Positions 29,465-47,076 of a stretch of DNA of 64,000 bases are shown here, in pieces. The notes beneath the pieces are model-generated. The model made no database searches and had not been told where the DNA came from. It saw only the letters and a program-made list of their open reading frames with translations. Origin of the DNA: Methanogenium organophilum (GTDB taxonomy: Archaea > Halobacteriota > Methanomicrobia > Methanomicrobiales > Methanomicrobiaceae); NCBI RefSeq assembly GCF_026684035.1, contig NZ_CP113361.1, positions 930,001 to 994,000 of the forward strand. Reading direction: 5' to 3'. How positions within the stretch are numbered: the first letter of the stretch is position 1; each line of letters opens with the position of its first letter. The position numbers and the translations under genes were made by a program.

Positions 29465-32400
29465 TTATTGCACCCCCTCTCCCCTGTTCCACTCCCGGAC
29501 AAGCCGTGCATAGCACGTTTCACAGATACTCGCCCGCTGTGCTTTTGACTGGTAGACTGCAGGTCCTTCGCCGCAGATGGTGCAGCGCCCGAGAGAGACA
29601 GACGAACGGCAAAAGTCCCGGTGGTCAAGGATGCCGGGGAGAGGAGGGGTGCGGCCGGTTTTTGGTCCCTGTCTTCCACACGTTTCCCCGGTGTTCCACT
29701 TTGTCTTCCACTCGTTTTGAGCCGTTTCTGATGATGAACCTGAATTTCGTGGACGAACAGGCGTAGAAACCGTTTGTGTTCCACTTTCTCCCGGATCAGA
29801 GATACCCCCATCCCCCTCCGTACCGGAACCCGGATCGCTGAATGATACCGGAAATGAGTGGAAGACTCCTGTACTATCTGTACATATATCTCTATTACTC
29901 TCCTCTTTATCGAAACGATTGTCAGTATGCGCAGTATTCAGAGTTCCACTTTTTGGCGGATGTGAGTGGAACACGGGTGGAAGAGTGGAACTCTCCGGGT
30001 CACTGTCACCTCCGGTATGCCTGTTATCATCTGCACTGTCATCCCCATCATCGGGTTTTAGCCAGACATCTGACCGGGCCGCCCATGTCTGATACATGAC
30101 ACGGTCAAAGGAGAAGAAATGTTTGTGCCGGCGGATATCAATTCCATAGAGGTCTTCAGCCACCGATGCTGAAATGAGGCTTATTGCAGGGCACTTGTCA
30201 AGGATACCGGCATAGCTTGCCTTCGTGTTGGTGTATCCATGGAGCAGGCGGTACGCCTGTTTATAGGAGAAGCCAAGGGCGTCCTGAAGCGTCCGGGTTG
30301 TGAAGACCTCCAGGTCCATCGCTGCGATAGAGGCAAGTGCGGCCGCTTCGTTTTTGGTCAGCTTCGTCTCCTGTCCGCCGGCGCTCCCGTTAATTGAACC
30401 ATAGAGCTGCTCTGCATAGCGGAAGTCCTCATCTGTTGCGATGAGTGTCCCGTCCGCATCCGTCTCCCGCTGGAGGAAGTGCATCAGGGCGTGGCACTTG
30501 ATGAGGTCAAAGAGCATCGCCGGGTTGCGCCGGTTGTGTGTCGCAGAGAAACAGATCCGTTTTGCATAGGGGATTTTTACCCGGCGCACCGCACCCTTGA
30601 GGACCTCCCAGACTGCCCGGCAGACCGGGATGTCCGCATCGTCATCAAACGAGGGGGAAACGCCTGTTTCAGACTCCTTCAGGTGTTCAAGAACCGCGAG
30701 GTCCTGTGTGGCTGAATCGTCAATCCAGACGGTGAGCATCCGGTTCATCACCTGGTCGTCGCCGATTGCCTCGACTTTTGCGAGCCACCAGACACAGCGC
30801 TCGGGGATGGTGCAGACCTTCAGCTGGCGTTCACGGGAGAGGGTCCGGTGAACGATGGGCTGCCGGAAGTTCGCGGTCGCGGACTTCAGGAGTTCCTGCA
30901 TGTCGTCGGAGAGGGTGACATCATCGAAGAGGAGGACGGTCCCCGCCCGGAGGTCATCGTAATAGAAGAGTGCCTTGTCAGATACCGTGCCTGTCAGCCG
31001 GTATTCCTCCGGGAGCAGCCGGACCATCGTATTGCAGGCATGGGTCTTTCCCTTGCCGGAGTTCCCGGAGATGGCGACGTGCAGGCCGGAGGTGTTCTCG
31101 ACGGACTGGGAGGCAACGGACATGATGAGGCATTCAGCCACCGTCCGGTCGCCGACGTGTTCACGGTGGAAGACGTCGAGGAGGAAGGAAAGCGGGTCGC
31201 CCGTCGTGAGGAGTTCGAGGGCCCGTTTCCGGTGCTCCTGGCCCTCGGCAGGCGTCTCCGCGGGAGGTGAGACCGGCGGGGCGGCTCCCGGCGGTGCAGG
31301 GGAGGGGCCATCCGGGGTACCTCCTTCCCCGGCGGCGACCTCCGTCTCCGCCTGTGGCCGTCCGGCGGTCTGCTTCCCGCCCGCTCTCCCGGCATCTCTC
31401 CTAGCATCTCTCCCGGTATCTCTCTCCCGCTCATACATCGCCCGGAGTTCCGGCCACCGCTGCGTCCCGCCGCCGCAGGAGTCGTGATGGCACCCGGCGA
31501 AAACCGCACCGTTCGAAAACTGGATGGCAAACGCCCCGTCGGTGTGTGCCGAAGAGAAGGGGCAGCGGGCGAGCGAGAAGAGCGTCCCCCCGTGCCACGG
31601 TTTTTCGGCGGCGACCGGGATGTTGTGGTAGTCCAGCCACCAGCGGAGCTCAAGGGAACTCCGCCTGCGGCCCCGGTCCTCTGCGGGAGGTGCCGTGGGG
31701 AGGAGGTCTGCGAGGCGGCGAAGGTCGCCCTCCGCGACAACCCCAACCTCACCCTCTTCCGGGACAGACAAAATGCGGGCCATACGGTGAGGCCGCTCCG
31801 GCGTGCTGTCGCCCTTGCAGGCGGTGGTGCCGTAGAGCTTCCATATCCGCCCGGCGTTGAAGTTCGCCGTGTCGCAGTGGACGGCATCGTCCGAGAAGAA
31901 CCCGTCGAGGACACCGAGACAGCCCTTCACGAGCCGGGTGGCATCATCATCGTTCGGGAGGTCAATCCGATAGAGCAGGTGGGCGCCGTTCCCCGAATCG
32001 GCCCGCACCGGGTCCGGGAAGCCCTGTTTCGCGAGCCAGGCGGCGATCTCTTCCGCACGCCGGAGGGCCGCCGCATGCTCCGCATCGGTCGCGGAGACGC
32101 CCGAGGGACGGACCGGGTCGAGGTCGATGGGGAGCCACCGGCGGCGTATGATGTCCGCATCCGCGGTCGTCGCATCACTGCGAGACAAACGGTGCTTCAC
32201 CCGGTTCGCCCGCCGCGAGAGGAGCGCCGGGTCCACCGTGTTCAGGGTGACATACACCCCGGTCACATCAGAGAATGCGTCCAGCGTCCGTGCACGGTCC
32301 GCAAGCATTTCAAAGTCCGTGAAGTAGCCGCTCTTCACCCCGCCGTCCCCCAGGGCACGGAGTTCGACGACGGAGCCTGAGGGGAAGAGGAGGGAGAGGG

Positions 32401-32593
32401 CGTGGGGGATGGAAGAGTGCAGGTTGGAAGTGGCCGGGTCGGGCCCGGCGGCGGTTCCGGTTACAGTTTCGGTTCCATCAGACACAATGGTGGCGCAGGG
32501 TCGTGTGGTGGGGCTGCCGGTTTCAGGTTCCGGCCCGGATTTAGGTTCTGATTTTTTTGTTTTGGTTTCGTTTTCGTTCACATTTTCGTTCAT
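29465..32593 (-). CDS. Primase-polymerase/helicase-like replication protein of a mobile element
   Basis: About 1,043 residues. After an acidic, low-complexity N-terminus, an archaeo-eukaryotic primase-like domain carries WLPIDLDP (a DxD pair near 157-159), DSGNGAHLLYRI and IWKLYGTTACKG. A central P-loop ATPase has ISGNSGKGKTHACN and VLLFDDVTLSDDM, of superfamily 3/AAA-like helicase style. The last ~30 residues contain a zinc finger (CTICGEGPAVY, ICETCYAR). Fusions of primase and helicase are typical of replicons of plasmids and proviruses. The ribosome site GAGGAG favours ATG 32593. The 5' third is duplicated, degraded, at 39880-40214. Confidence 0.78.
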   Translation of the reverse strand: MNENVNENETKTKKSEPKSGPEPETGSPTTRPCATIVSDGTETVTGTAAGPDPATSNLHSSIPHALSLLFPSGSVVELRALGDGGVKSGYFTDFEMLADRARTLDAFSDVTGVYVTLNTVDPALLSRRANRVKHRLSRSDATTADADIIRRRWLPIDLDPVRPSGVSATDAEHAAALRRAEEIAAWLAKQGFPDPVRADSGNGAHLLYRIDLPNDDDATRLVKGCLGVLDGFFSDDAVHCDTANFNAGRIWKLYGTTACKGDSTPERPHRMARILSVPEEGEVGVVAEGDLRRLADLLPTAPPAEDRGRRRSSLELRWWLDYHNIPVAAEKPWHGGTLFSLARCPFSSAHTDGAFAIQFSNGAVFAGCHHDSCGGGTQRWPELRAMYERERDTGRDARRDAGRAGGKQTAGRPQAETEVAAGEGGTPDGPSPAPPGAAPPVSPPAETPAEGQEHRKRALELLTTGDPLSFLLDVFHREHVGDRTVAECLIMSVASQSVENTSGLHVAISGNSGKGKTHACNTMVRLLPEEYRLTGTVSDKALFYYDDLRAGTVLLFDDVTLSDDMQELLKSATANFRQPIVHRTLSRERQLKVCTIPERCVWWLAKVEAIGDDQVMNRMLTVWIDDSATQDLAVLEHLKESETGVSPSFDDDADIPVCRAVWEVLKGAVRRVKIPYAKRICFSATHNRRNPAMLFDLIKCHALMHFLQRETDADGTLIATDEDFRYAEQLYGSINGSAGGQETKLTKNEAAALASIAAMDLEVFTTRTLQDALGFSYKQAYRLLHGYTNTKASYAGILDKCPAISLISASVAEDLYGIDIRRHKHFFSFDRVMYQTWAARSDVWLKPDDGDDSADDNRHTGGDSDPESSTLPPVFHSHPPKSGTLNTAHTDNRFDKEESNRDICTDSTGVFHSFPVSFSDPGSGTEGDGGISDPGESGTQTVSTPVRPRNSGSSSETAQNEWKTKWNTGETCGRQGPKTGRTPPLPGILDHRDFCRSSVSLGRCTICGEGPAVYQSKAQRASICETCYARLVREWNRGEGVQ

Positions 32594-32729
32594 AATTTTC
32601 ATCTCCTCTGTTCGAGACAGAGAGTGTCCACTATTCACAGAGTATGAGTGTGATAGCAGCGGGGCCTGAGGGAGAAGTCAGTGGTGGTATCGCACACCTG
32701 TGCACATGCACACATGTACGCACTTCTGT

Positions 32730-32780
32730 CAGCCGGTTCCCCGGTGGCGGCTGGCATATGAACGTATTACTTCGGGTAAT
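32730..32780. promoter_or_regulatory. Conserved palindromes upstream of the primase (copy 1)
   Basis: CAGCCG/CGGCTG arms (32730-32735 and 32748-32753) flank CCCCGG, and ATTAC-TTCGG-GTAAT follows at 32766-32780, next to ATATAAG. Both palindromes are kept in copy 2 (40361-40384, 40397-40411), where the second is ATTACC-TTG-GGTAAT. They may be an operator or part of a replication origin. Confidence 0.5.
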
Positions 32781-32927
32781 ATAAGTCTGACTTAACCGGG
32801 GATGGGAAGTTCCAATTCTTTCAATAAAAGAGGGAAGTAAGAGGAATTAACTCCGCGAATTCTTCAGGTGAACTTTGATATACCCTCCCGGTATATTCAG
32901 CCCCAAACACACGGGAGGTGAAAATCT

Positions 32928-33089
32928 ATGGGAAAAGGCAGAGGCGGCGGACGCAGCCCGAATGATGACCGGTCCGATTCAATGAATCCGAACAACCCTG
33001 CATACGATGCTGCAAGGGATAATCGTTCAGACCAATTGAACCCCAACAATGAACGATACCAGGGGGATGAGGAAGAAGATGAGGATTGA
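32928..33089 (+). CDS. Small charged protein (53 residues) of the mobile element
   Basis: The ATG at 32928 follows GGGAGGTG by 7 bp. The product, opening MGKGRGGGRSPNDDRSDSMN, contains two NPNN motifs (MNPNNPAY, LNPNNERY) and an acidic end. Proteins with the same Gly/Arg start and repeated NPNNPAY motifs occur in many archaea and bacteria, function unknown. A frameshifted copy lies at 40594-40736. It is probably expressed separately from the divergent primase gene. Confidence 0.7.
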   Translation: MGKGRGGGRSPNDDRSDSMNPNNPAYDAARDNRSDQLNPNNERYQGDEEEDED

Positions 33090-33272
33090 AGTTCTCATCT
33101 GATTTTTGTCATATTTTCATCATGATCTCAATCAGGAGATTGGTAAAAAATACTATTTTCGTGTGTTCATTTTACAAAATATGATTTTATGGAAAGCAGG
33201 ATTATTGTGAGTGAGATGTGTGGCGTGCTATGATTTTCCCATTTGCAGATTATTTTTGGAAGTAATTTAATA

Positions 33273-34525
33273 GCCCCCTCCATTTTCCCCTGTTCAAATA
33301 CGCCAAAACCATACTTCAACCGGAAATCTCATTGTCGATCAATTCCCCCCTTCTAAAAGTACACCACCAGATTATTACATTCCAGAATCAGAGAGAATTT
33401 TGACCGCAAAATTGATCGTACAGGAAGGGGATGTCATATTTGGTGAATCAAATGAAATCCCCTTTGATAGTGGATCGTACTGACTCAAAATGGTTGCTCC
33501 TGGAACAGATCATTGGTGCCACAACTTCCCGTCGAGCTAAACAGGAAATGGCAAAACAGGGAATAACACCTGTCAATAATGCCGACTCAATGCTGCGAAT
33601 CCTGATCCTTTCAATGTTTTTCTCTGTTGAAGTAACCTATGTCATCGGAGAACTCAGAAAACGGCGAGAATTACAATTATTCCTCCGCGTAGAGGTTATT
33701 CCGGAAGCAGATGATGTCTATCGTTTTTTCAGTAGGACCGATGAGGATCATTTCATTGCTATGATCAACGGCCTCATCCGGAACCTAAGCAGACCTTCCC
33801 GGAAACGGAAAGAGAAAACAATCATCATCGACGGTTCTGCGATTACCCTTGATATCAAACTCTTTAAAAAACGTCTCACTAAGAAAGAACTTGAGAAAAA
33901 TGATTAAAAATGGGGATTCTCAAATACAGCTGGATATTATCCCGGTTTCAAGCTGACTCTGGCCATTGAATATCCTTCACTTGTTCCTCTGGCTTTTCTC
34001 ATTCATCCTGGATCACCACATGATTCCCGTCTTTTCAATGATATTATGGACGAACTTAAACGGCGGAGAATAATCCAAACAGGAGATGTTGTCGTATTTG
34101 ACCGGGGATACTATTCCTATGAGAACTACGTGAACGGCATACGGGATTATCGAATCGTGCCGGTAATCTTCCCAAAGAAAAAGTTTGATATCAATAAAGT
34201 GATGAGGAAAATGAACTATCCCCTCAATATTTTTTCAAGTCATGAATATCGGAAAATACAGACAATGTATCAGAAGCTTGTTCACAAAATGATGGATCTG
34301 AGAGAACGGTGGCACGAATTTCCTGCTGTACGATCGCTCATTGAAGATCTGTTCAAATTGGCAAAAGATGCGTTCTCATTACGACATTTGCACCGGTATT
34401 CTGCCGTATCTGTGAAAAAATTCGTTGCTATTAATGTACTTTTAGTAGGGGTGGCAATGGCTGCGGGGAATAACGAAAAGAAGCTCATTCAGAGGATGTC
34501 TGAATGGTGAATTTTGGAGGGGGGG
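33273..34525. mobile_element. ISH3-like insertion sequence
   Basis: The element is 1,253 bp. The left end opens GCCCCCTCCATTTTC, and the right end reads TTTTGGAGGGGGGG, giving a 9-bp core inverted repeat (CCCCCTCCA, 33274-33282 and 34515-34523). The 5-bp word TAATA occurs directly outside both ends (33268-33272, 34526-34530) as a target duplication. Length, 5-bp duplication and archaeal host fit the ISH3 family. The transposase is broken by one stop. Confidence 0.8.
33431..34510 (+). pseudogene. DDE transposase with an in-frame stop (ISH3/IS4-like)
   Basis: Both halves are in the same frame and separated by a single TAA at 33905-33907 (codon 159). The catalytic triad is still readable: D134 in IIIDGSAITLD, D224 in VVVFDRGYY and E305 in RSLIEDLFKLAKDAF. 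The C-terminal half starts with KWGFSNTAGYYPGF, in frame. Apart from the stop, the protein is of normal length (about 359 residues). It is inactive unless the stop is suppressed. Confidence 0.8.
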
Positions 34526-34654
34526 TAATACTTAATGTATGACAGTCTAATGAAAAGTTAATGTGCATATCCATTTGGACTAATTTGAATAGATTTACAT
34601 AATTGTTTAGCTTAAGATTCGTTTAATAAATAAGTTGAATAGGGAGGAATTGTT

Positions 34655-37600
34655 ATTAACCAAAAGAAGAAGTTTTTTGATTCGATAAGTAAGGGGCCAG
34701 CTTTACTTTTTATCGGTCAAAACCATTTAAAAATACAAACCGGAGAAGATCCATACCTACTTGAAATATTACGGAAGTACGGAAAAGGTCAATTACCCGA
34801 TCAGCCAACATACTATTCGATTTTCGATTCTTTGTCTATAGAAATTACAGACAATGAAATGGCATGGATGCATAACCTCTCCCAAAAAATAGCAATCCCA
34901 CATTGGATGGAATTTGTTGCAAAGTTCGATTGGAGTAGTATTTATACATCAACAATAGATGAAACAATATCAAGAGCATTCCAAAATGATTGGAGGACTG
35001 TACCTAGAATTTCATCAACAAATAATAATCCAAGTGATCAAACTAATCGAAGAAAATTGCATTGTACATACTTATTTGGCTCAATCGTCGATACATCAGA
35101 AAATGAAATTCCCCCTTTTAATGAAGAAGACTACGAGAGCAGATTAGAAGATGAAGCATATCCTCTTTTATCACGAATTCGTCAAACCATTACTCCCCTT
35201 GGAACTTTAGTAATAGATACTTATGATCCAGACAATGACTGGCTTAAGCCAAAACAATTGCGATTGATAATAAAAAAGTTAATCAAGGGACAAACTTTTT
35301 TGTTTAGTGCCACAGATAGCATCAAAGAAATCTTTTCTAAAGAGATTCGAGAAGGAAAAATTATTGTTTTTGATGAACCGCTCTATCACGTACTAAAAGA
35401 AGGAGAGAAACTTGGTAAAGTTAGCTTAGAAAATATTCCCAGTGAAGAATTAAGTCAAATTTATATAGATATTGGCGAAAATACAATAAACGTACCCTCA
35501 AATTTATGGAAGACAATTTCACAATTTGCAGAAATAATTGATTGCAGTTTATTTTTTGAAACAAAGCAAATTACAAAACTTGAGAATGAGATAGAATTTC
35601 AGCAATTTATTGCAAGTTCATCGAATTTTCCAATATGGTCGGGATATATTAGAAATTATCCATTTGAGAGGGATTATGAAAAAGAATTACAAAGTTTAGT
35701 ATTGTCGTGTCTGAAAAAAAAATCAATTGACGAATGCCCAATAATTCTTCACGGTCAAACAGGTAGCGGAAAGACAATTGCATTACAACATTTAGCATTT
35801 AATGTTAGCAAGCTAAAACATCCTGTTTTATTCATTAGGAATGGCATTCAAACAGATTTTGCAACTATTCGGTCTGGCATTGAGGATTTTTGTGAATGGA
35901 CACAAAAAATAGGTGCAAATAAATTATTGGTTGTATGGGATGGAATGTTTCAGCCAAATGTATATCAAAAACAATTTAATATTCTAAGCAATCGGGGAAA
36001 AAAAACTGTTTTTGTTGGAAGTTCATATCATTTAGAAGAAGAAAAGGAATACAAATATTCATCCAACAATGAATGTATTCCCATTGAAGCACCTGTGATA
36101 TTAACTGAATGTGAAATTAATAATCTCATATTACATTTTTCAACTATTTATCCTGATTTCAGTAAAATCCTTAAAACCAATCGCGGAAAATTATCTAGCG
36201 ATAATTTTTTGGTTTATCTATATCGTCTTTTACCACCATCGAGAAGTAATATTCATCTAGGTATTGTCTCAGAAACTGATAGAGCTAAATCAAATATTCG
36301 ATTAGCTACAGCAAGGAAAAAAATTACATTTGGAACAAGTATTTTTAAGTCAAAACTTGTTGAGGCCGGTTTTTCATTACCCGATGACTATATAGAGGAT
36401 GAGAAAATTAATTATTTTAATTCTTCAGATGTATTTACAACACTTTTTCATTATGTTATGGTCCCTGGAAGATTAGGGCAAAAAGTACCATTTGATTTAA
36501 TTCAGAGAACAATAAAATCAAATGGTTACTATGAATTGCTAGAAATACTTGAAAATGAGGACCTTTTTGTTGTTATTGAAGAGAATGATGGCAATTTATT
36601 TATTTCACCAAGGCATACCCTTGAAGCAAAAATTATTTGCAACTGGGATTTTGGAGGGCCAGAAAATGAAGTAGGATATTGTCTAAAATTAATGGACAGT
36701 GTCCACATTATCAATTATGGTCTATCTCATATTTCAGATGAAGATATTGAATTAAAATTTATTTTAGAACTTGTAAAAAATTTAGGGCCTAATGGCCCCG
36801 AAAAAGAAAGATACAAAGAATATTATTATAAAATATCACAAAAATTGGCAGAATTAAGAAAAGAGAAATCAATTATAATCCCTAGCCTAATTTTACAAGA
36901 GGCAAATCTTTCAAGGGAATATATACGGACAAAATCACAATCTGGTTTTGACCTCCCAGAAGATACAGAAAAAATATTAAATAATTCTATTGAATTGCTA
37001 ACTAATGCAATCTTTAATCTTGGAAGAACCAGGAGCTCTCAAAGTAAAAATAATCTAATTGAACAGATGACAGTTGAATTAGCTTCAATAAAATCTACCA
37101 AAATTATTCACTGTTTACAAAATAATATTGAATTTGATATTTCTAATGAATACAAATCATTATTTTCTGATCTCGATAAAATTCTTAATAAATCAACAAA
37201 TGATGAACATGCGCTTGATGTTTATGGTTGGAGTACAATAAACATTATTAAGAATTCTTCGTTGCCTGAAATTGAAAAAACTAAAATGTTGACTCAGGCA
37301 CTTAATGTAATTGAGGTAGGTGAAACCAGTGCTTTTGGAATAAATGAGAGAATCATTACGAGAAAAATGAGTTTGTTTAAGTTAATGGGTGAGGAAGAAT
37401 TATCAAAAGATCTTTTCGATAAATTAAGGGATAATGGCTCTAGAATTGGATATTTATGGCGAGTATTTGAAAATACTTCAGAAATCTCGAATAAAAAATC
37501 ACAATATACAGACAATGAAGTAGAAAAATTTAAAGAAAATTGTCAGTTTTTAGAAAAAAATAGAAGTTTTATCAAAGAAGATAGTGGATGTTTATTTCAA

Positions 37601-38128
37601 CTATTAAAGAGCTGGTGGATAATGAAAACAACTCGACCTATCTTTAATAAAGAAAATGAAAGGCAAACCTTACCTTTTTCAGATGACGATTGGTCCTATT
37701 GCCTAGGTATTTTGGAGGATCTACATCAACTGAGTAAACTGAGAGACAATGCCTCTTTGATGTATATCTATGGAATAGTAAATTTTCACCTAAAAAAATA
37801 TGAGACTTCAAGAAATGCGTTTAAATCAATTGCACACCTAGATTTTGAATATGGAGGAGGTGGAGGTCGCCGCATTATTCGGTACTATTTAGCAAGTACA
37901 GAGGATGGCAGTCCAAAATTATATAATGGGAGAATTAAGTCAGTTTCTGAAGATAATAAGGGATTAATTCAGGTTGACGAAACCCGGAAAGATATTATAT
38001 TTTTCCCACGTGATTTCAGAGAATCCTCTTTAAATGAAGGAGATCAGATGGAACCATTCCATATTGCATTTAATTTCATAAGTCCTGTTGCAGATCCAGT
38101 TCGTCACTACGAATTAAAACATAATTAA
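34655..38128 (+). CDS. SIR2-like domain/P-loop NTPase with a helical C-terminus, putative defence protein
   Basis: The N-terminal ~250 residues look SIR2-like: GPALLFIGQNHLK, KFDWSSIYTSTIDETISRAF, HCTYLFGSIVD. A P-loop domain follows: LHGQTGSGKTIALQH (about 365-379) and KLLVVWDGM (about 422-430). The last 600 residues are helical with TPR-like segments (IYGIVNFHLKKYETSRNAF). This SIR2-STAND layout is known in antiphage NAD-depleting systems. The SIR2 start is open upstream of the first TTG (34832) by 59 codons and contains no ATG/GTG/TTG; GGGAGGA lies 7 bp before ATT 34655, which I take as the start. Very AT-rich, so likely transferred. Confidence 0.7.
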   Translation: MNQKKKFFDSISKGPALLFIGQNHLKIQTGEDPYLLEILRKYGKGQLPDQPTYYSIFDSLSIEITDNEMAWMHNLSQKIAIPHWMEFVAKFDWSSIYTSTIDETISRAFQNDWRTVPRISSTNNNPSDQTNRRKLHCTYLFGSIVDTSENEIPPFNEEDYESRLEDEAYPLLSRIRQTITPLGTLVIDTYDPDNDWLKPKQLRLIIKKLIKGQTFLFSATDSIKEIFSKEIREGKIIVFDEPLYHVLKEGEKLGKVSLENIPSEELSQIYIDIGENTINVPSNLWKTISQFAEIIDCSLFFETKQITKLENEIEFQQFIASSSNFPIWSGYIRNYPFERDYEKELQSLVLSCLKKKSIDECPIILHGQTGSGKTIALQHLAFNVSKLKHPVLFIRNGIQTDFATIRSGIEDFCEWTQKIGANKLLVVWDGMFQPNVYQKQFNILSNRGKKTVFVGSSYHLEEEKEYKYSSNNECIPIEAPVILTECEINNLILHFSTIYPDFSKILKTNRGKLSSDNFLVYLYRLLPPSRSNIHLGIVSETDRAKSNIRLATARKKITFGTSIFKSKLVEAGFSLPDDYIEDEKINYFNSSDVFTTLFHYVMVPGRLGQKVPFDLIQRTIKSNGYYELLEILENEDLFVVIEENDGNLFISPRHTLEAKIICNWDFGGPENEVGYCLKLMDSVHIINYGLSHISDEDIELKFILELVKNLGPNGPEKERYKEYYYKISQKLAELRKEKSIIIPSLILQEANLSREYIRTKSQSGFDLPEDTEKILNNSIELLTNAIFNLGRTRSSQSKNNLIEQMTVELASIKSTKIIHCLQNNIEFDISNEYKSLFSDLDKILNKSTNDEHALDVYGWSTINIIKNSSLPEIEKTKMLTQALNVIEVGETSAFGINERIITRKMSLFKLMGEEELSKDLFDKLRDNGSRIGYLWRVFENTSEISNKKSQYTDNEVEKFKENCQFLEKNRSFIKEDSGCLFQLLKSWWIMKTTRPIFNKENERQTLPFSDDDWSYCLGILEDLHQLSKLRDNASLMYIYGIVNFHLKKYETSRNAFKSIAHLDFEYGGGGGRRIIRYYLASTEDGSPKLYNGRIKSVSEDNKGLIQVDETRKDIIFFPRDFRESSLNEGDQMEPFHIAFNFISPVADPVRHYELKHN

Positions 38129-38142
38129 GGTAAAGTTGAAAT

Positions 38143-38889
38143 ATGTTTTCTAAGACATATGCTAAAATCTCTTCAATAAATAGTATTGTTGATGAAATAA
38201 ACAAAAAAGGCAATAGTTTTTTTGATGATGAAATGCTGATTGTTTATCCCGAAAATCTTAAATGTATCAACTTTACATGTTTTGAAGGTGCTTTTTTCCA
38301 CGTTATTAGCGGTTTATATTTAAAATACATTGATAATAAAAAAAGTCAGGAAAATTTGAAATATTTACTTGAAAAAACTGATATCTATGGTATTTCTCCA
38401 GACATAAACTTAAGGAGCCATATTAAAACAATTCAAACATTAAGAACATTTTTTCAGCATGATATACTTAAGGAAAATAAGAATAACCGGAGTACCAAGA
38501 GAAAAACATACGAATGGTTTCAAAATCAATGTGGAAATGATTTACCAATTACAGAAAATGATTGGAAATTATCTTTAAATTCAATTTTAGATGAATCATC
38601 TCAGTTTTTTTTAGCAATATTAGATTGCGTTATGCAAATATCTAACGATGAAGAAAAGAAATTCATATTAGAAAATTGGACTACTTCACTATTCCCCTTT
38701 TCAGTACATGATGTTTCTGAAATTGTAAGTGAAATATTTGAAGAAAAAGGGATTGAAGGAGTGAATTCATTTAATTATACAAAGAAAAATTATCAAAAAT
38801 TTATTAGGGAACTAAAAATATATGAAGAACCTTCTTCTGAAAATTTAAAACGAATAATAAATAGCGCAACGGCAGATCTAATAATGTAG
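38143..38889 (+). CDS. Unknown partner of the SIR2-like NTPase
   Basis: A 248-residue mostly helical protein, Lys- and Asn-rich, with no recognised domain. Segments such as RSHIKTIQTLRTFFQHDIL and WKLSLNSILDESSQFFLAIL recall HEPN-like all-alpha folds, but the R-x4-6-H motif is not clear, so I make no call. It starts 14 bp after the NTPase stop and shares its AT-rich base use. It is probably the second subunit or a regulator of the same system. Confidence 0.65.
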   Translation: MFSKTYAKISSINSIVDEINKKGNSFFDDEMLIVYPENLKCINFTCFEGAFFHVISGLYLKYIDNKKSQENLKYLLEKTDIYGISPDINLRSHIKTIQTLRTFFQHDILKENKNNRSTKRKTYEWFQNQCGNDLPITENDWKLSLNSILDESSQFFLAILDCVMQISNDEEKKFILENWTTSLFPFSVHDVSEIVSEIFEEKGIEGVNSFNYTKKNYQKFIRELKIYEEPSSENLKRIINSATADLIM

Positions 38890-39475: not shown

Positions 39476-39907
39476 TTGCGGGTGCACCATCAGCAATTGC
39501 CCGGCTACAGCAACAATTATTGCGCATCAGACATATTACAAAAAAATGTTTCCATGAAATGGGGGAAATGTGTGACTGAGAATGCATCTGATTCTGAAAC
39601 AAATAGAACCGGAAAAATCATAGTAAACTCAATACCTGATGGAGTATCTGTTAAGCTTGACGGAAAGGATACAGGAAAAACTCCTGCAACTCTTGAAAAC
39701 ATAACAGCAGGGTTTCATAAAGTAGAAGTAAATCTGCCAGATAATCGTCAGATATCAAGAAATATTTCTGTAAGTGCCGGCAATACTTCAACAATTTGCC
39801 TTAATAAATATACTGAAAAAGAAGTCAATATAATAAAAGCTATTGGGATATATATCGCATTGACCTCCATCATGTGTACAGCGCCGGGTCCACCGCGTTC
39901 AGGGTGA
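39476..39907 (+). pseudogene. PEGA-domain protein fragment
   Basis: Residues about 45-115 form a PEGA domain (GKIIVNSIPDGVSVKLDGK, TPATLENITAGFHKVEV, YTEKEVNIIKA). PEGA domains are beta-rich surface modules. No signal peptide is visible, and the last ~15 residues are read from the repeat sequence that starts at 39880, so the 3' end has been replaced. This is a truncated, chimeric frame rather than an intact gene. Confidence 0.6.
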
Positions 39908-40214
39908 CATACACCCCGGTCACATCAGAGAATGCGTCCAGCGTCCGTGCACGGTCCGCAAGCATTTCAAAGTCCGTGAAGTAGCCGCTCTTCACCCCGC
40001 CGTCCCCCAGGGCACGGAGTTCGACGACGGAGCCTGAGGGGAAGAGGAGGGAGAGGGCGTGGGGGATGGCGGTTGTTTCGGTTTCGGTTCCTTCAGACAC
40101 AATGTTGGCGCAGGGTTGTGTGGTGGGGCTGCCGGTTTCGGGTTTTGGCCCGGATTCTGTTTCGGTTCTTGTGGTTTCTGTTTCAATTTTGGTTTCGTTT
40201 TCGGTTTCGTTCAT
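39880..40214 (-). pseudogene. 5' fragment of a second primase-helicase gene
   Basis: The frame matches the first ~120 codons of the gene at 29465-32593 (HALSLLFPSGSVVELRALGD, KSGYFTDFEMLADRARTLDA) and then ends at the junction with the PEGA fragment. The acidic N-terminal linker has lost blocks relative to copy 1. It cannot encode an active protein. Confidence 0.8.
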
Positions 40215-40360
40215 AATTTTCATCTCCTCTGTTCGAGACAGACAGTGTCCACTATTCACAGAGTATGAGTGTGATAGCAGCGGGGCCTGAGTGAGAAGTC
40301 AGAAGTCTGTGGTGGTGTTGTCACCTGCGTGCGTGTTTGTGTGTTTGCACGCCCTTCTGC

Positions 40361-40411
40361 CAGCCGGTTCCCCGGTGGCGGCTGGCATATGAAGGTATTA
40401 CCTTGGGTAAT
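40361..40411. promoter_or_regulatory. Conserved palindromes (copy 2)
   Basis: CAGCCG (40361-40366) with CGGCTG (40379-40384), then ATTACC-TTG-GGTAAT (40397-40411). The stem of the second palindrome differs from copy 1 at paired positions, so symmetry has been kept while sequence changed. Confidence 0.45.
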
Positions 40412-40593
40412 ATAAGTCTGACTTTACCGGGGAGATGGGATGGGGTTGGAGGAGAGGTAGAAATTATTGGGGACGCAGGAGGACGCATCTCAAAAGAGAG
40501 AATGGAACGATTCGGGAAAGGGCATTAAACAGGAACAGGGGTTTCTTTCGACACAGAGAGATAAGGATAACGGTAGTATGGTGGTGAAAATCT

Positions 40594-40736
40594 ATGGGAA
40601 GAGGCGAAGGTGGTGGACGCAGCCCAAATGATAACGGTCCATGAATCCAAACAACGAAACATACCATGCGGCGATGGATAAACATGCGGACCAGTTGAAC
40701 CCCAATAATGAGAGATACCAAGGGGATGAGGACTGA
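40594..40736 (+). pseudogene. Frameshifted copy of the small MGKGRGGG protein
   Basis: ATG 40594 opens MGRGEGGGRSPNDNGP and then meets a stop, because one base is lost near the NDD/NDN codons and the GATTCA codons are missing. The rest (NPNNERYQGDED) is still readable in another frame to 40736. Confidence 0.7.
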
Positions 40737-40993
40737 AGTTCTCATTCTTTTTTCGTGTGATGATTTTTATTTTTACACACATAATTCACCGAAAAACCAA
40801 GCCCATTTTATTACCCTTCATGCTTGTCATCATCCCCTAATTTGTGAACGGCGTGATCTCTTGAAATATAACCTAGATAACTCCCAAGACGAAATTGTTG
40901 ATAGGTGTTTGCAAACAGATACCATATTTCGACATCACGATCCTGCCAGGGCTTATTGTAAATCGAAGAATTAATGATATAATTAAGGGATAT

Positions 40994-43129
40994 TTAATCA
41001 TCTAAGTGGATATAATATCGAGGATCTGGATTGTTAATATCACCCCAACGTGAATCAGCTGACCAAGCCCCATCCGGTTCTTCTTTTTTTCGAGTTTCTA
41101 CAGTAATACATTGTAAAGTTGGATCATATCTTAATAAATTATATTGAAGAGGTATGCCAGGGATTTGTTCTTTAACAGGAGCACCAAATGTCCCAGCACC
41201 AATAAAAGTAATATTTCTATTACCCCGATTGCGAAAATTATAACTTGCTTTATGAATATGCCCATGTAAACAAATTTTGAAACCGTTATCTGCTAATAGT
41301 TCTTGAATCTCTTCATTTTCAATCATCTCCCTGCCTGTAAGAGGATGATGCAATACTCCAATTTTCAGCCAACCATCATATTTTGGACCAATAATTTGAG
41401 AGATGGCCTTTGATAATGCATCCGTGTTTACATGTGATCTATTTCTATGTGGTTCATAATGATCAATATTCCAAGATGAATTAAGAGCCAGGAAAAGAAT
41501 ATTATTATCCGGAAATGTGCTTATAACACCTTGATCAATATATTCCAGAGGGTAATACGTATCATAAATTGGAAAATGGAAATGGTTGCTAAAATTATCA
41601 AATCTATTCTTGTAACAGTTTTCATCTTTTAATAAAACTCCATTGCTATCCCCAGGAATGAATGAACCCCGTTCTAAATTAGGGGGGCAACTCTCATATT
41701 TGGTATATTTATACGCTTTTTCCGAAATACCCCAATTTAGATCATGGTTACCAGGAACAACGATAATCTGTTTGCGGTTCAGATCAATTATTTCCATCAA
41801 TTCTTCTATTAAAAAAATGGCTGCCTCATATTCTTCTTGAGTCGAATATGTACCAATATCCCCTGAAATAATTAAAAAATCAATTTTTTGAATTTTAAGA
41901 TTATTTAGTAAATCAGTCACAAGTTGAACAGAATATTTTCGAGAATCACTTTTTGTTCCAAGATGGATATCTGATAAATGAAGAATATGAATTAGTTCTG
42001 AGTTGTCTTTTTCTATTTTTTGTTTTAATTGGGTTACCTGATATTTATTATATTTTTCAAGTTTTTTTACAAAATCAGAATAATTGCAGAATTCCAAATG
42101 CCAGATCTTCGTATACCCTTCAGAATAGTCCTCCGCAAATTTTTTAACAATTGGATATACTAATTGAATTTCTGGATGCATTCGATTAAAAACAAAAACT
42201 CCAATTGTCTGCAATTTACTTCCCGTAGGGGATATTACACACTTGTGTGAATACTTATAGTCATTATAAATACCCTCCAATATTTTTACTAATTCAATAT
42301 ACTCAAAAGTTCTTGCCTCTTTATGATGTATGTGTTTAATATTGCCAATTAATGATTTCTCAATTCTTTCATTAACCCAGCGAATAGCATCCGATCGCCA
42401 TTCATTCACACTATTGTGCGGGACACCCTCAATTTCAATTAAGTATTGAGGATTCATTTCATTCAACAATGCCCCTAATTCTTGATGATTAAATGTTGGA
42501 AAAGCGATCATCAATAGAGGACTGCCTGCCATAGTAATACTAGACAATTCGTTTATACAAACCAATTTATAAATGTCCTTGGTTAGGAAAGTCGGAAGAG
42601 GTAATGGATAGTTATGATTTTCTTTTTCACTTAGAAATTTTTCTTGGGTCGGGTGATAAATTTCAGCTTCGGAGTAAATAATATGAATATTTCCTTGAAA
42701 ATTCGATAGTAAATTTAAAAGAAAGATGATTAAAAACTTTGAAAAACTACTAACATCGATTATTATATCATTTGTGCTATTGATCACTTTTTGAATTTTA
42801 TTAAATTCACTATAAAATGTATCAGGGTTTACTCTATTATAATTCAACCATTCCATTTTATTTATTGTGAGTGTATTGGCCAAATCACCAAATTCAGTCT
42901 CTCGATTTTTGGGGTTATATGGTTCATATTTAATGCCAAAAACATATGCAAATTTTTTATTCCTTAATGCCATTTTATTGAGAAATGCAAAACCTCTATC
43001 TTCAAAACCTGCAGCTCCAATAAAAATAGCATCCGTAGGAATATTGCTGGTTCTTAATTCATTTATTGATGGTAAAACCTCATCGAAATATCGACTAGCT
43101 TGTTCAGAAATTTCTCCAAATTCAGTCAT
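40994..43129 (-). CDS. Two-domain protein: Rossmann-like N-terminus and calcineurin-like metallophosphoesterase
   Basis: The C-terminal half (from about 380) is a metallophosphoesterase with all signature blocks: LHLSDIHLG (Asp387, His389), IISGDIG (Asp424), VVPGNHDLNWG (Asn461, His462), VLHHPLTGRE and ICLHGHIHKAS. The N-terminal ~350 residues are a separate alpha/beta unit (IFIGAAGFEDRGFAFL, IIDVSSFSKFLIIFL, PQYLIEIEGVPHNS, CVISPTGSKLQTIGVFVFNR) that resembles the CARF/Rossmann-like sensor folds but is not assigned. Its start overlaps the kinase-ATPase stop by 4 bp. It likely cuts a nucleic acid or cyclic nucleotide on demand. Confidence 0.72.
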   Translation of the reverse strand: MTEFGEISEQASRYFDEVLPSINELRTSNIPTDAIFIGAAGFEDRGFAFLNKMALRNKKFAYVFGIKYEPYNPKNRETEFGDLANTLTINKMEWLNYNRVNPDTFYSEFNKIQKVINSTNDIIIDVSSFSKFLIIFLLNLLSNFQGNIHIIYSEAEIYHPTQEKFLSEKENHNYPLPLPTFLTKDIYKLVCINELSSITMAGSPLLMIAFPTFNHQELGALLNEMNPQYLIEIEGVPHNSVNEWRSDAIRWVNERIEKSLIGNIKHIHHKEARTFEYIELVKILEGIYNDYKYSHKCVISPTGSKLQTIGVFVFNRMHPEIQLVYPIVKKFAEDYSEGYTKIWHLEFCNYSDFVKKLEKYNKYQVTQLKQKIEKDNSELIHILHLSDIHLGTKSDSRKYSVQLVTDLLNNLKIQKIDFLIISGDIGTYSTQEEYEAAIFLIEELMEIIDLNRKQIIVVPGNHDLNWGISEKAYKYTKYESCPPNLERGSFIPGDSNGVLLKDENCYKNRFDNFSNHFHFPIYDTYYPLEYIDQGVISTFPDNNILFLALNSSWNIDHYEPHRNRSHVNTDALSKAISQIIGPKYDGWLKIGVLHHPLTGREMIENEEIQELLADNGFKICLHGHIHKASYNFRNRGNRNITFIGAGTFGAPVKEQIPGIPLQYNLLRYDPTLQCITVETRKKEEPDGAWSADSRWGDINNPDPRYYIHLDD

Positions 43130-45588
43130 AGATATTTACTCAACTTATTACTGCCAATCCCTTTTTTGCATCTATCACTTTCCATATATGATTCAAACTC
43201 ACTTGGATTATTTAACAAAAGATTTAATTCTTCAGTATCGAGGCCAATATTATCTCTTTTAGACGGTGATAATCTAAATGTGGGAATCAACAATTTTCTC
43301 AAATAGAGCCTCGGCGCAACAACACCCCGTTGGCTTTTCCCCCTAGAATCCTTAATAAAAATCGAGTAACGTAAAAGCCCATCATATATTTTTTGAGACT
43401 TTTCGTCTAGGGTAGGACGTTCACGCATCTCTATTCTATATGCTTGCCAAGGAGGGCTTTTTGTTTGATTTTTAGAATCCTTATGAACTAAGTACCAATG
43501 TGCAACATTACCAAAGGCCTCAGTAACTTCTCTTAAATCTTGCCCAATATCTGGAACCATTTCAATTTTATCTAAAAATTCATTACCCATTTCTTTAACT
43601 ACTTTATTTTGTTTTGCTGCATCGATTGGCAATTTAACATCTGGAGTCATAAAAGCTTTTAATCCCCCATTTGATTCAAAAATACGTTTAATTAGCGATA
43701 AAATTTGAGCAACATCACCCGAGCATAATCCCATAATTACTTGATGCCCAGAATAAATTTCATGTTTTCCTTCTCTAATTTGTTCTGCCATATGGACATA
43801 TATTTTCAGAGGGCTATCTCCTAATATCTGTTCAATATTGTGATATTTCTCGTGGATCTCAGAATTTTTTAATCGGTTATTAACAACTTCATATAAGAAA
43901 TCTTTTCCAGCTTCCTCATTACCAAGGAATATATCTCCAAAATCAACTGTCAGATACTCTCGACCTTCTTCCAATAATTTCTTTTTTGAGTTATATGGAT
44001 GGAAAGATATGAAACTCTCTGTTGACACTTTAAAGAAATATTCTGAGCCTGCGCTTGGGAAAAAGATGAAATCATGCAATGTTTCTTGCAAATCTATTGA
44101 AATGCTGGGTGAAGAATAATCATCTAAAAAGAAATAAATAACCCGCCCCTTCATCCAATGGATTTCATTCTGTAAAAGTTTACATACATTTTTTAAAAAA
44201 TCCATTGGTAATAGATCTGGTTGGTTATTTTTATTATCACCAAACCATTGTCTTAATATTACTTTTTCTCCTAAAACAAAGGCGATTAAATGTTCAATTA
44301 CATTTGTTCCGCAGGGAGGGACTGTATATGAAGAAACATATTTCGAGAACAATTTTTGCAATGTATATATTGTATTTTGATCTAATTCAAATCCCTCAAT
44401 ATCCTTTGCGACATTAAGTAGATCTAAAATCTCAGAAAAAATTGATAAATTAAAATAATGAATAATACCCCTTCTTTCATCATCTGCAATATAACCATTC
44501 AAATATGGAAATGCAAAATATAAATCATTGCAATGGTAATAAATACCGATATAATCATCTGAAAAATCATCTAATTTTTTCACTTTATTTCCTAAAATTT
44601 GTGTTTTTAGGCTAATATTTCTAAATATTGTTGTTTTTCCACAACCCCTCGGACCAGTCAAAACGGTATTATTTTTTGAAAGAAGAGATGAATAGATTGG
44701 GAAATTTTTTGAATATAATAACTGCAAAAGTTCAAAAGAATCACCAATATCTTCGCACCTTAAATAATCAAAAGGATCCGTAAGTTTTTGCATCGTTGAG
44801 ATATTTTTTTCTTTATATTTTTCAGGAATATGGTAAAGAAGTGAAAGTAATTTCAAAGGTTTCCGGACATAGTCACCTTCAACAGTAGGATCTGTTTCTA
44901 ATACTTTTTTTGTGAGAAAATCCTCAATAAAGACATCATAAAAATATCTGTCTTTCCCATCCAATATGGAGTAGTCAATAACTTCAAGTAGCGATTGGCA
45001 AATCAAGGCAAATTGGCTATAATCATCCTTTAAGACTAAATTATCTAGGTGTCCCAATTTAAAATCAAAATCAGTTACTTTAAGTGTGGGAATATCCGGA
45101 TTAATCGTAAATGGATCATGTAATATTAAAATATTGTTTCCATTCAAGAAACCATGACTATTTATCCCAATTTTTTCTATTGCAACAAATAATTGTAACA
45201 TCTGGTCAGCAAACAATTTTATAAATGGTATCGTAATATTTTTATTATTGCCACTGACATATTCCAAAAGAGATTTGCCTTCAAGGTATTGAGAAAATAC
45301 ACAAATTATAGATTTATTTTCTAACTTTATTTCTATTGGATCATTATAATATAATATTTGAGAGATTCCTTCTAATTTTCGGGCATTTATTTTTATTTTG
45401 GAATTACAATCGTTTTTTAATAAGTCTTTGGGGATCAATTTACACAGTACGTAAATATTTTCAGTTTTGTTATATGCCCTATATACAACTCCTAACAATT
45501 CTCTTCGAATCTCACTTTCAAGGGTATATCCATCAATTTCTACCCCCACATATTCATTTTTTAAGGGATGCCACTCATTTGTCATCAT
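43126..45588 (-). CDS. Pseudokinase-AAA ATPase fusion, putative defence NTPase
   Basis: An 820-residue protein. Residues 15-240 follow the protein-kinase fold (GYTLESEIRRELLGVVYRA, Lys50 in VLCKLIPK), but the catalytic loop is SHGFLNGNNIL (144-154) instead of HRD-x-K-x-x-N, and DFG is DFD (173-175). It is probably a pseudokinase. A P-loop ATPase follows: VLTGPRGCGKTTIFRN (Walker A 312-319) and VIYFFLDDYSS (Walker B 483-490), like ORC/STAND-type ATPases. The rest (500-820) is a helical and winged-helix-like tail. AAGGTGA lies upstream. Very AT-rich. Confidence 0.7.
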   Translation of the reverse strand: MMTNEWHPLKNEYVGVEIDGYTLESEIRRELLGVVYRAYNKTENIYVLCKLIPKDLLKNDCNSKIKINARKLEGISQILYYNDPIEIKLENKSIICVFSQYLEGKSLLEYVSGNNKNITIPFIKLFADQMLQLFVAIEKIGINSHGFLNGNNILILHDPFTINPDIPTLKVTDFDFKLGHLDNLVLKDDYSQFALICQSLLEVIDYSILDGKDRYFYDVFIEDFLTKKVLETDPTVEGDYVRKPLKLLSLLYHIPEKYKEKNISTMQKLTDPFDYLRCEDIGDSFELLQLLYSKNFPIYSSLLSKNNTVLTGPRGCGKTTIFRNISLKTQILGNKVKKLDDFSDDYIGIYYHCNDLYFAFPYLNGYIADDERRGIIHYFNLSIFSEILDLLNVAKDIEGFELDQNTIYTLQKLFSKYVSSYTVPPCGTNVIEHLIAFVLGEKVILRQWFGDNKNNQPDLLPMDFLKNVCKLLQNEIHWMKGRVIYFFLDDYSSPSISIDLQETLHDFIFFPSAGSEYFFKVSTESFISFHPYNSKKKLLEEGREYLTVDFGDIFLGNEEAGKDFLYEVVNNRLKNSEIHEKYHNIEQILGDSPLKIYVHMAEQIREGKHEIYSGHQVIMGLCSGDVAQILSLIKRIFESNGGLKAFMTPDVKLPIDAAKQNKVVKEMGNEFLDKIEMVPDIGQDLREVTEAFGNVAHWYLVHKDSKNQTKSPPWQAYRIEMRERPTLDEKSQKIYDGLLRYSIFIKDSRGKSQRGVVAPRLYLRKLLIPTFRLSPSKRDNIGLDTEELNLLLNNPSEFESYMESDRCKKGIGSNKLSKYL

Positions 45589-45945
45589 TTTTCACCTTTT
45601 AATTTTTTGACCATCTCCACTTTGAAGTGTTCTTTGATATTCTGAAAATAATTATCCAAAGAGAACAATGAGCAATATTTTTAATTTTTATGATTACTTA
45701 TTTATACCACTATTTTCAATTATGATTATTTCCACATATGAGTCTTTCTAATTGAATCCTCATTATCACATGAGCGGATCCACTCAAAAATCCCAAATAT
45801 CACAATAAGTAACGGAATATTCCAACAACAGCTCTCTTTTTATTTTTTTATGTGCAACCCATTTTTCCACAGTCTATTTCTTTACAAATAATGTACTCCA
45901 CAATTCTTACTCCTTAGAATAGATTCATAGGAATTTTTAATATCA
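45589..45945. other. AT-rich gap upstream of the pseudokinase-ATPase gene
   Basis: 357 bp separates the methyltransferase stop from the start of the kinase-ATPase gene. The segment is very AT-rich and probably holds the promoter of the two-gene unit. No coding frame is convincing. Confidence 0.5.
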
Positions 45946-47076
45946 TCATCTTACCTTCCGAATTACCACAATCCATTCTTTTTTTGTACAATTACATTCC
46001 TTCCGAACCCTACGAATGTCTGGAACTATATCTTCAACGGCATCACAAATTTCCAAGTTTCCAATTTGATCTGTTACTTCTACTAACGCTTGTGCAGTGC
46101 TGTATGAATGCTTCGTCCTTTTCACATTCCCAACAACAAATACAAAATATCCATTTTTTTTAATTGCTGGATAAAGATTACTCAGAGCATCCTTCATTAA
46201 AATTTTAAATTCTCCAATATTTCGTGGATTGGATTGATCGATTTCTTTAAATTGACTAATACCTAAAAACCATAATCTTAGACGATTATCTCGTGCATAA
46301 TCTAATGCGTTCATATATGGGGGGCTTGTTATCACGGCATCGATAGATTCATCTTCCAAGTTAATTTTTTGAGCAGATTCTAATAAACAAGCTCTATTTA
46401 ATGAAAAATCCAGTTCGGGAAATTTACGATATGATCGAACAATTTTCTTAATAATCCTTGATTCAAGATCCCTATATTCATATAATTCAGGGAATTGATC
46501 TTTTGGAAATTTTTTTGTACGCAGATATGGAACCATATGACTTGCAGGGTAAGAAAGGAACCCAGGTCGTTGATGATGGATAATGCCAAGAAGATTCGCC
46601 CTTATAAAATATTCATTTGATGTTCGCAATAACGTGTTAAAGGCGATGCATTCCTTCAGTGTGTCTGGATGATAGAAATCTTTCACCCAATCAGGAATAT
46701 TAGATAACGAAGTATTATTTGAGAGTATTTTCATCGACGATAAATAATCCCATGTTTTTTCTAAAGCCTCTTCAAGTGATTTATATGGATGCAATTTTGC
46801 ACATGTTAATGTATAGGCGTATGGATTTATATCACAAGAAACAACATTTCTGCCCAAAATCCAGCTTTCTAAAGGGATAGTTCCAGATCCTGAAAACGGA
46901 TCCAAAATCGTATCCTTTGGTTTCGAGAAGGTTTGAACCAATTTTTTTGCAAAAGCTGGTTTAATCTTACCAATGTAAGGTGAGATTTGATGGATATTAC
47001 AATCTTGATTTTGTGTATATCCTGACCATTCAATCGGATTTAACCCAAAATTATTCTGATCAGTAATCATTGTCAA
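45946..47076 (-). CDS. N4/N6 DNA methyltransferase
   Basis: A 376-residue amino-methyltransferase. Motif I is TILDPFSGSGTIPLE (59-66 core), the SAM-binding neighbour is VVSCDINPYAYTL, and motif IV is VITSPPYMNALDY (SPPY 251-254). SPPY is typical of N4-cytosine enzymes and DPPY of N6-adenine, so N4-cytosine is favoured. No restriction endonuclease gene is adjacent; the next genes are the pseudokinase-ATPase and the phosphoesterase, which suggests a modification function marking self DNA in a defence system, or a solitary methyltransferase. Confidence 0.85.
   Translation of the reverse strand: MTMITDQNNFGLNPIEWSGYTQNQDCNIHQISPYIGKIKPAFAKKLVQTFSKPKDTILDPFSGSGTIPLESWILGRNVVSCDINPYAYTLTCAKLHPYKSLEEALEKTWDYLSSMKILSNNTSLSNIPDWVKDFYHPDTLKECIAFNTLLRTSNEYFIRANLLGIIHHQRPGFLSYPASHMVPYLRTKKFPKDQFPELYEYRDLESRIIKKIVRSYRKFPELDFSLNRACLLESAQKINLEDESIDAVITSPPYMNALDYARDNRLRLWFLGISQFKEIDQSNPRNIGEFKILMKDALSNLYPAIKKNGYFVFVVGNVKRTKHSYSTAQALVEVTDQIGNLEICDAVEDIVPDIRRVRKECNCTKKEWIVVIRKVR

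Follow-up and report, generated by a model that had tools for sequence, protein, structure and literature searches.

A candidate two-gene conflict system with a SAMD9-like layout and an apparent AUU start codon in Methanogenium organophilum

Within a 64,000-nucleotide window of the Methanogenium organophilum genome (NZ_CP113361.1, positions 930,001 to 994,000), two consecutive genes, ORF A and ORF B (Table 1), may well constitute a rare, horizontally spread conflict system, in which a sensor translated from an AUU codon at 34655 (ORF A) would activate a HEPN-like RNase (ORF B); we advance this reading tentatively. The operon is probably antiviral. The architecture and the two-gene unit are put forward with good confidence, the AUU start with moderate and the target with low confidence.

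Table 1. Features of the operon and its upstream flank (window coordinates)
Feature	Position	Strand	Basis or remark
Broken DDE transposase	33431-34510	+	one in-frame TAA; ends ~145 bp upstream of the proposed start
Shine-Dalgarno GGAGG	34643..34647	+	7 nt before ATT 34655
ATT, proposed AUU start codon	34655..34657	+	in frame, normal Shine-Dalgarno spacing, family-typical N-terminus length
T6 run	34673..34678	+	TTG 34650 would enter the frame through an indel or -1 shift here
ORF A, SIR2-like/STAND NTPase/TPR/OB protein	34655..38128	+	1157 codons plus stop, counted from ATT 34655
Degenerate SIR2-like domain, residues 1-262	34655..35440	+	hhalign to archaeal SIR2_2 proteins
STAND P-loop NTPase, residues 326-480	35630..36094	+	PF25199 in 7/7 members; alignment
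Walker A GQTGSGKT, residues 367-374	35753-35776	+	intact
Helical TPR-like array, residues 590-1065	36422..37849	+	structure model and fold search
OB fold resembling cold-shock domain, residues 1085-1150	37907..38104	+	hhalign; predicted strands
ORF B, conserved partner (248 aa)	38143..38889	+	adjacent relative in 6/6 loci examined
RTFFQH, R-x4-H motif of ORF B, residues 101-106	38443..38460	+	invariant in alignment

Homologues and the start of ORF A

Six homologues of ORF A, 31-32% identical to it, were recovered from five bacterial genomes (two Microcoleus, of which one copy lies split across contigs, one Coleofasciculus, Paenibacillus solanacearum and an Obscuribacterales MAG) and one viral contig. 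The viral-contig homologue, a full-length protein (33% identical), was the first relative found, by a pattern probe whose alignment held two rows, one of them a guessed sequence; the guessed row is not evidence, and only the real loci are treated as such. The real pair of archaeal and viral-contig proteins was used to find the five bacterial homologues, and genome searches added an N-terminal fragment (G1224) and a remote relative (G918). Single-sequence searches of plasmids, viral contigs and the 295 phylum and 232 order genomes yielded no relative. Phage matches were rejected as weak P-loop or chance hits, and an order-genome match to residues 4-57 (G434), which has a stop inside, was spurious.

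The ORF A frame is open from 34643, after an in-frame TAG (34640-34642), and ends at TAA 38126-38128. As originally predicted, its in-frame codons contain no ATG, GTG or TTG before TTG 34832, the first standard start, 59 codons downstream of ATT 34655; near-cognate codons in this stretch include ATT 34649, ATT 34655, ATA 34685, ATC 34712 and a few others. The SIR2-type start that had been read there, GPALLFIGQNHLK, corresponds to residues 14-26. No tested region resembles the homologues more than residues 13-59, with 45% identity and eight invariant columns (A16, L18, G21, Q22, L25, L35, K41 and Y53), and the N-terminus that a standard start would leave out is present in all six homologues, every one of which extends upstream of the residue matching TTG 34832. 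Judged from the alignment, this conservation is beyond chance, and TTG 34832 is not the start; translation must begin upstream. A product from TTG 34832 would be without the first strand of the SIR2-like domain, and in PaAvs5-1 the deletion of residues 2-30 abolished protection (PMC12931631).

The GGAGG element, expected in about 0.5% of 20-nt stretches at the base composition of the cassette, was confirmed at the predicted distance from ATT 34655, and lies 1 nt from ATT 34649 and 2 nt from the out-of-frame TTG 34650; spacings of 4-12 nt are normal within the window, and no Shine-Dalgarno sequence was found ahead of TTG 34832. Counted from ATT 34655, 13 residues precede the G/T-P-A motif, compared with 10-21 in the homologues. 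AUU 34655 is apparently the simplest reading and the best start candidate, with moderate confidence. AUU is a known start in bacteria, and IF3 discriminates against it (PMC4611024); a literature search found no archaeal precedent for AUU initiation.

The best-surviving alternative, which we consider rather unlikely, is an ordinary start hidden by a sequence error or by joined frames: positions 34655-34657 may carry a substitution, the T6 run may have dropped a T whose return would put TTG 34650 in frame, or a -1 ribosomal frameshift may occur, for which the U UUU UUG of the run could serve. This account equally places the true N-terminus upstream, and at 3% conservation residues 1-12 do not let homology decide between AUU 34655 and a TTG 34650 start joined to the frame across T6. 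However, the Shine-Dalgarno spacing (7 versus 2 nt) favours AUU 34655 over TTG 34650, and the genome assembly is a single contig. Pyrrolysine read-through was rejected as the cause of the missing start, given the TAA stops just upstream of TAG 34640; PylB matches within the genome fall below the cut-off.

Distribution and genomic setting

The family was met in 2/340 Cyanobacteriales genomes, 2/296 from the Paenibacillus order (one of them remote) and 2/194 from the Obscuribacterales class, the search-centre genomes themselves being counted, and no second archaeal member was seen among the order and phylum genomes searched. Archaeal ORF A is about equally distant (31-32%) from every bacterial member, and the bacterial members are 38-55% alike. 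In the remote two-gene unit of the Paenibacillus order (L119:3652-8123, in G918), the SIR2-like domain is degenerate in another way, and the partner carries the motif LRSWYCHN.

The operon has a GC content of 26-31%, against 49% for the window, and is flanked by near-duplicate direct repeats of ~890 bp (32223-33109 and 39880-40756; 78-99% identity in blocks), which contain the 5' region of a primase-like ORF of 1057 aa together with its truncated copy. This arrangement suggests that the end of a mobile element was duplicated around the operon. The DDE transposase upstream has no second copy in the genome, and pyrrolysine read-through of it was rejected, its stop being TAA. The broken transposase, the duplicated flanks and the length of ORF B, about 55 residues shorter than the bacterial partners, would also fit a decaying ORF A whose start codon was lost following transfer or IS insertion; we regard this as improbable, as 1157 and 248 codons run without a stop, key motifs are retained and the Shine-Dalgarno sequence is intact.

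Downstream, on the minus strand (40994-47076), lies a low-GC group comprising a CARF-like protein with a metallophosphoesterase, a kinase-like/ORC-CDC6-like ATPase and a DNA methyltransferase. It matches PADLOC CARF6-type models and looks like a second defence system.

Domain architecture of ORF A and its partner

The N-terminal domain of ORF A matched archaeal SIR2_2 proteins in hhalign (P 2e-5 when the remote member is included; the score, 44, compares with a maximum of 22.1 over 40 column shuffles, 16 for the reversed profile and 17-20 for other protein parts), supporting a SIR2-like fold at the level of profile comparison. The SIR2 motifs for NAD binding and catalysis, of which GAGxS and TTNxD are the Avs5/SIR2 NADase motifs (PMC12931631), are replaced in every family member (GAGxS by GQxYL, TTNxD by TSAID or TSTID, and HG by FG), and NAD depletion by a NADase activity of ORF A is therefore unlikely. 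A SIR2-STAND protein from a genome of the same order (L078; G330:C2:361500-369500) has a canonical-looking GAGLS and offers a natural active contrast to the ORF A family.

PF25199 covers the NTPase across the family; the archaeal protein alone falls under the curated cut-off in hmmscan and just over it in the genome search. All seven aligned members have a GKT/S Walker A. Searches with PF25199 brought up other STAND proteins, with no SIR2 fusion among those read. The C-terminus matches cold-shock OB folds in hhalign (P 6e-4; score 23.6 versus 15.0 in shuffles), a domain that the original prediction overlooked along with the nearest solved architecture, human SAMD9. SAMD9, collinear with ORF A from the SIR2-like part through STAND NTPase and TPRs to the OB fold, is the best solved-structure match of the ORF A model (Foldseek E 5e-17; Z 15.9, rmsd 15.6 over 673 residues), and Avs5 the second best. 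The model has a pLDDT of 66, mostly below 50 in the SIR2-like region, and the loose superposition on SAMD9 would reflect a domain arrangement common to both rather than close superposition.

ORF A has the published domain order of the SAMD9/SAMD9L family of animals and some bacteria: a SIR2-like variant, a STAND-like P-loop NTPase, TPRs and a cold-shock-like OB fold (PMC5445408). In contrast to that family, it is without an AlbA/tRNase, SAM or kinase domain and is accompanied by a separate R-x4-H partner gene; AlbA_2, which is lost in some SAMD9 members, has no Pfam match in ORF A and no room before the SIR2-like domain. When PDB sequences were searched with a profile, no SAMD9 chain appeared at E values up to 1. 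As SAMD9 proteins have a Walker A of the GGT/S type (PMC5445408), unlike the canonical GKT/S of the ORF A family, we describe ORF A as laid out like SAMD9 and do not file it as a family member.

No PADLOC family fits ORF A or ORF B. That ORF A is a NAD-depleting SIR2-STAND protein of the Avs5 (AVAST type 5) kind, as originally proposed, is very doubtful: the predicted SIR2, P-loop and TPR-like defence layout holds, with Avs5 sharing the SIR2-like domain, STAND NTPase and helical repeats, but in the ORF A family the NAD motifs are replaced, an OB fold is added and there is a conserved partner gene of a kind that Avs5 does not require; in PaAvs5-1, N110A and D112A abolish immunity (PMC12931631).

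ORF B, which the original prediction had correctly placed downstream and left unrecognised, is a conserved second gene, with relatives directly downstream of ORF A relatives in every locus examined. Seven sequences share invariant R101, T102, Q105 and H106, and the remote G918 partner keeps the R and H. The predicted structure is all-helical (pLDDT 86.8); Pfam gave no HEPN match and fold searches no confident match. An invariant R-x4-H in an all-helical protein recalls the R-x4-6-H type of HEPN RNases in toxin-antitoxin and defence systems, with T/S after the R rather than N/D/H. Bacterial partners carry an additional tail similar to the C-terminal part of CCA-adding enzymes (PF13735 in three members; weak PDB matches), which is missing from archaeal ORF B. 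Given its conservation and invariant R-x4-H, ORF B is the likelier effector.

Proposed mechanism and significance

SAMD9, an antiviral protein, acts as a tRNase and depletes tRNA-Phe through its N-terminal tRNase domain (PMC12331169). By analogy, we infer that ORF A is a STAND-type sensor and switch, comprising a catalytically degenerate SIR2-like domain, P-loop NTPase, TPR array and OB fold, which would be made from the Shine-Dalgarno-led AUU and would sense infection through its TPR/OB region. The NTPase would then assemble and activate the trans-encoded ORF B in an A-B complex, and this predicted R-x4-H HEPN-like RNase would cut RNA, with tRNA as the leading candidate, so that translation stops.

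Speaking for this scheme are the conserved N-terminus and its Shine-Dalgarno sequence, the SIR2-like fold with replaced motifs, the SAMD9 match and OB fold, the constant partner whose R-x4-H persists in the remote pair, the CCA-enzyme-like tail of the bacterial partners, and the defence-like neighbours, duplicated flanks and patchy spread. Against it weigh the fold searches of ORF B, which did not confirm a HEPN fold, the GKT Walker A, the low-pLDDT model with its loose superposition, the resemblance of Avs5, too, to SAMD9 (PMC12931631), the tail-less archaeal partner and the lack of an archaeal AUU precedent in the literature searched. More speculatively, and with a probability that we put low, this could be a prokaryotic SAMD9-like immune system, occurring in bacteria and at least one archaeon, that encodes its tRNA-cutting effector as a HEPN-type gene of its own; it would then be related, in split form, to the animal anti-poxvirus factor and would here be expressed from an AUU start.

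With its two genes, the operon is a tractable microbial counterpart, in domain order, of the human antiviral proteins SAMD9/9L, whose SIR2-like and OB parts have unclear roles. ORF A is also an archaeal candidate for natural AUU initiation, and gene finders would shorten it by 59 residues, cutting the first strand of its N-terminal domain.
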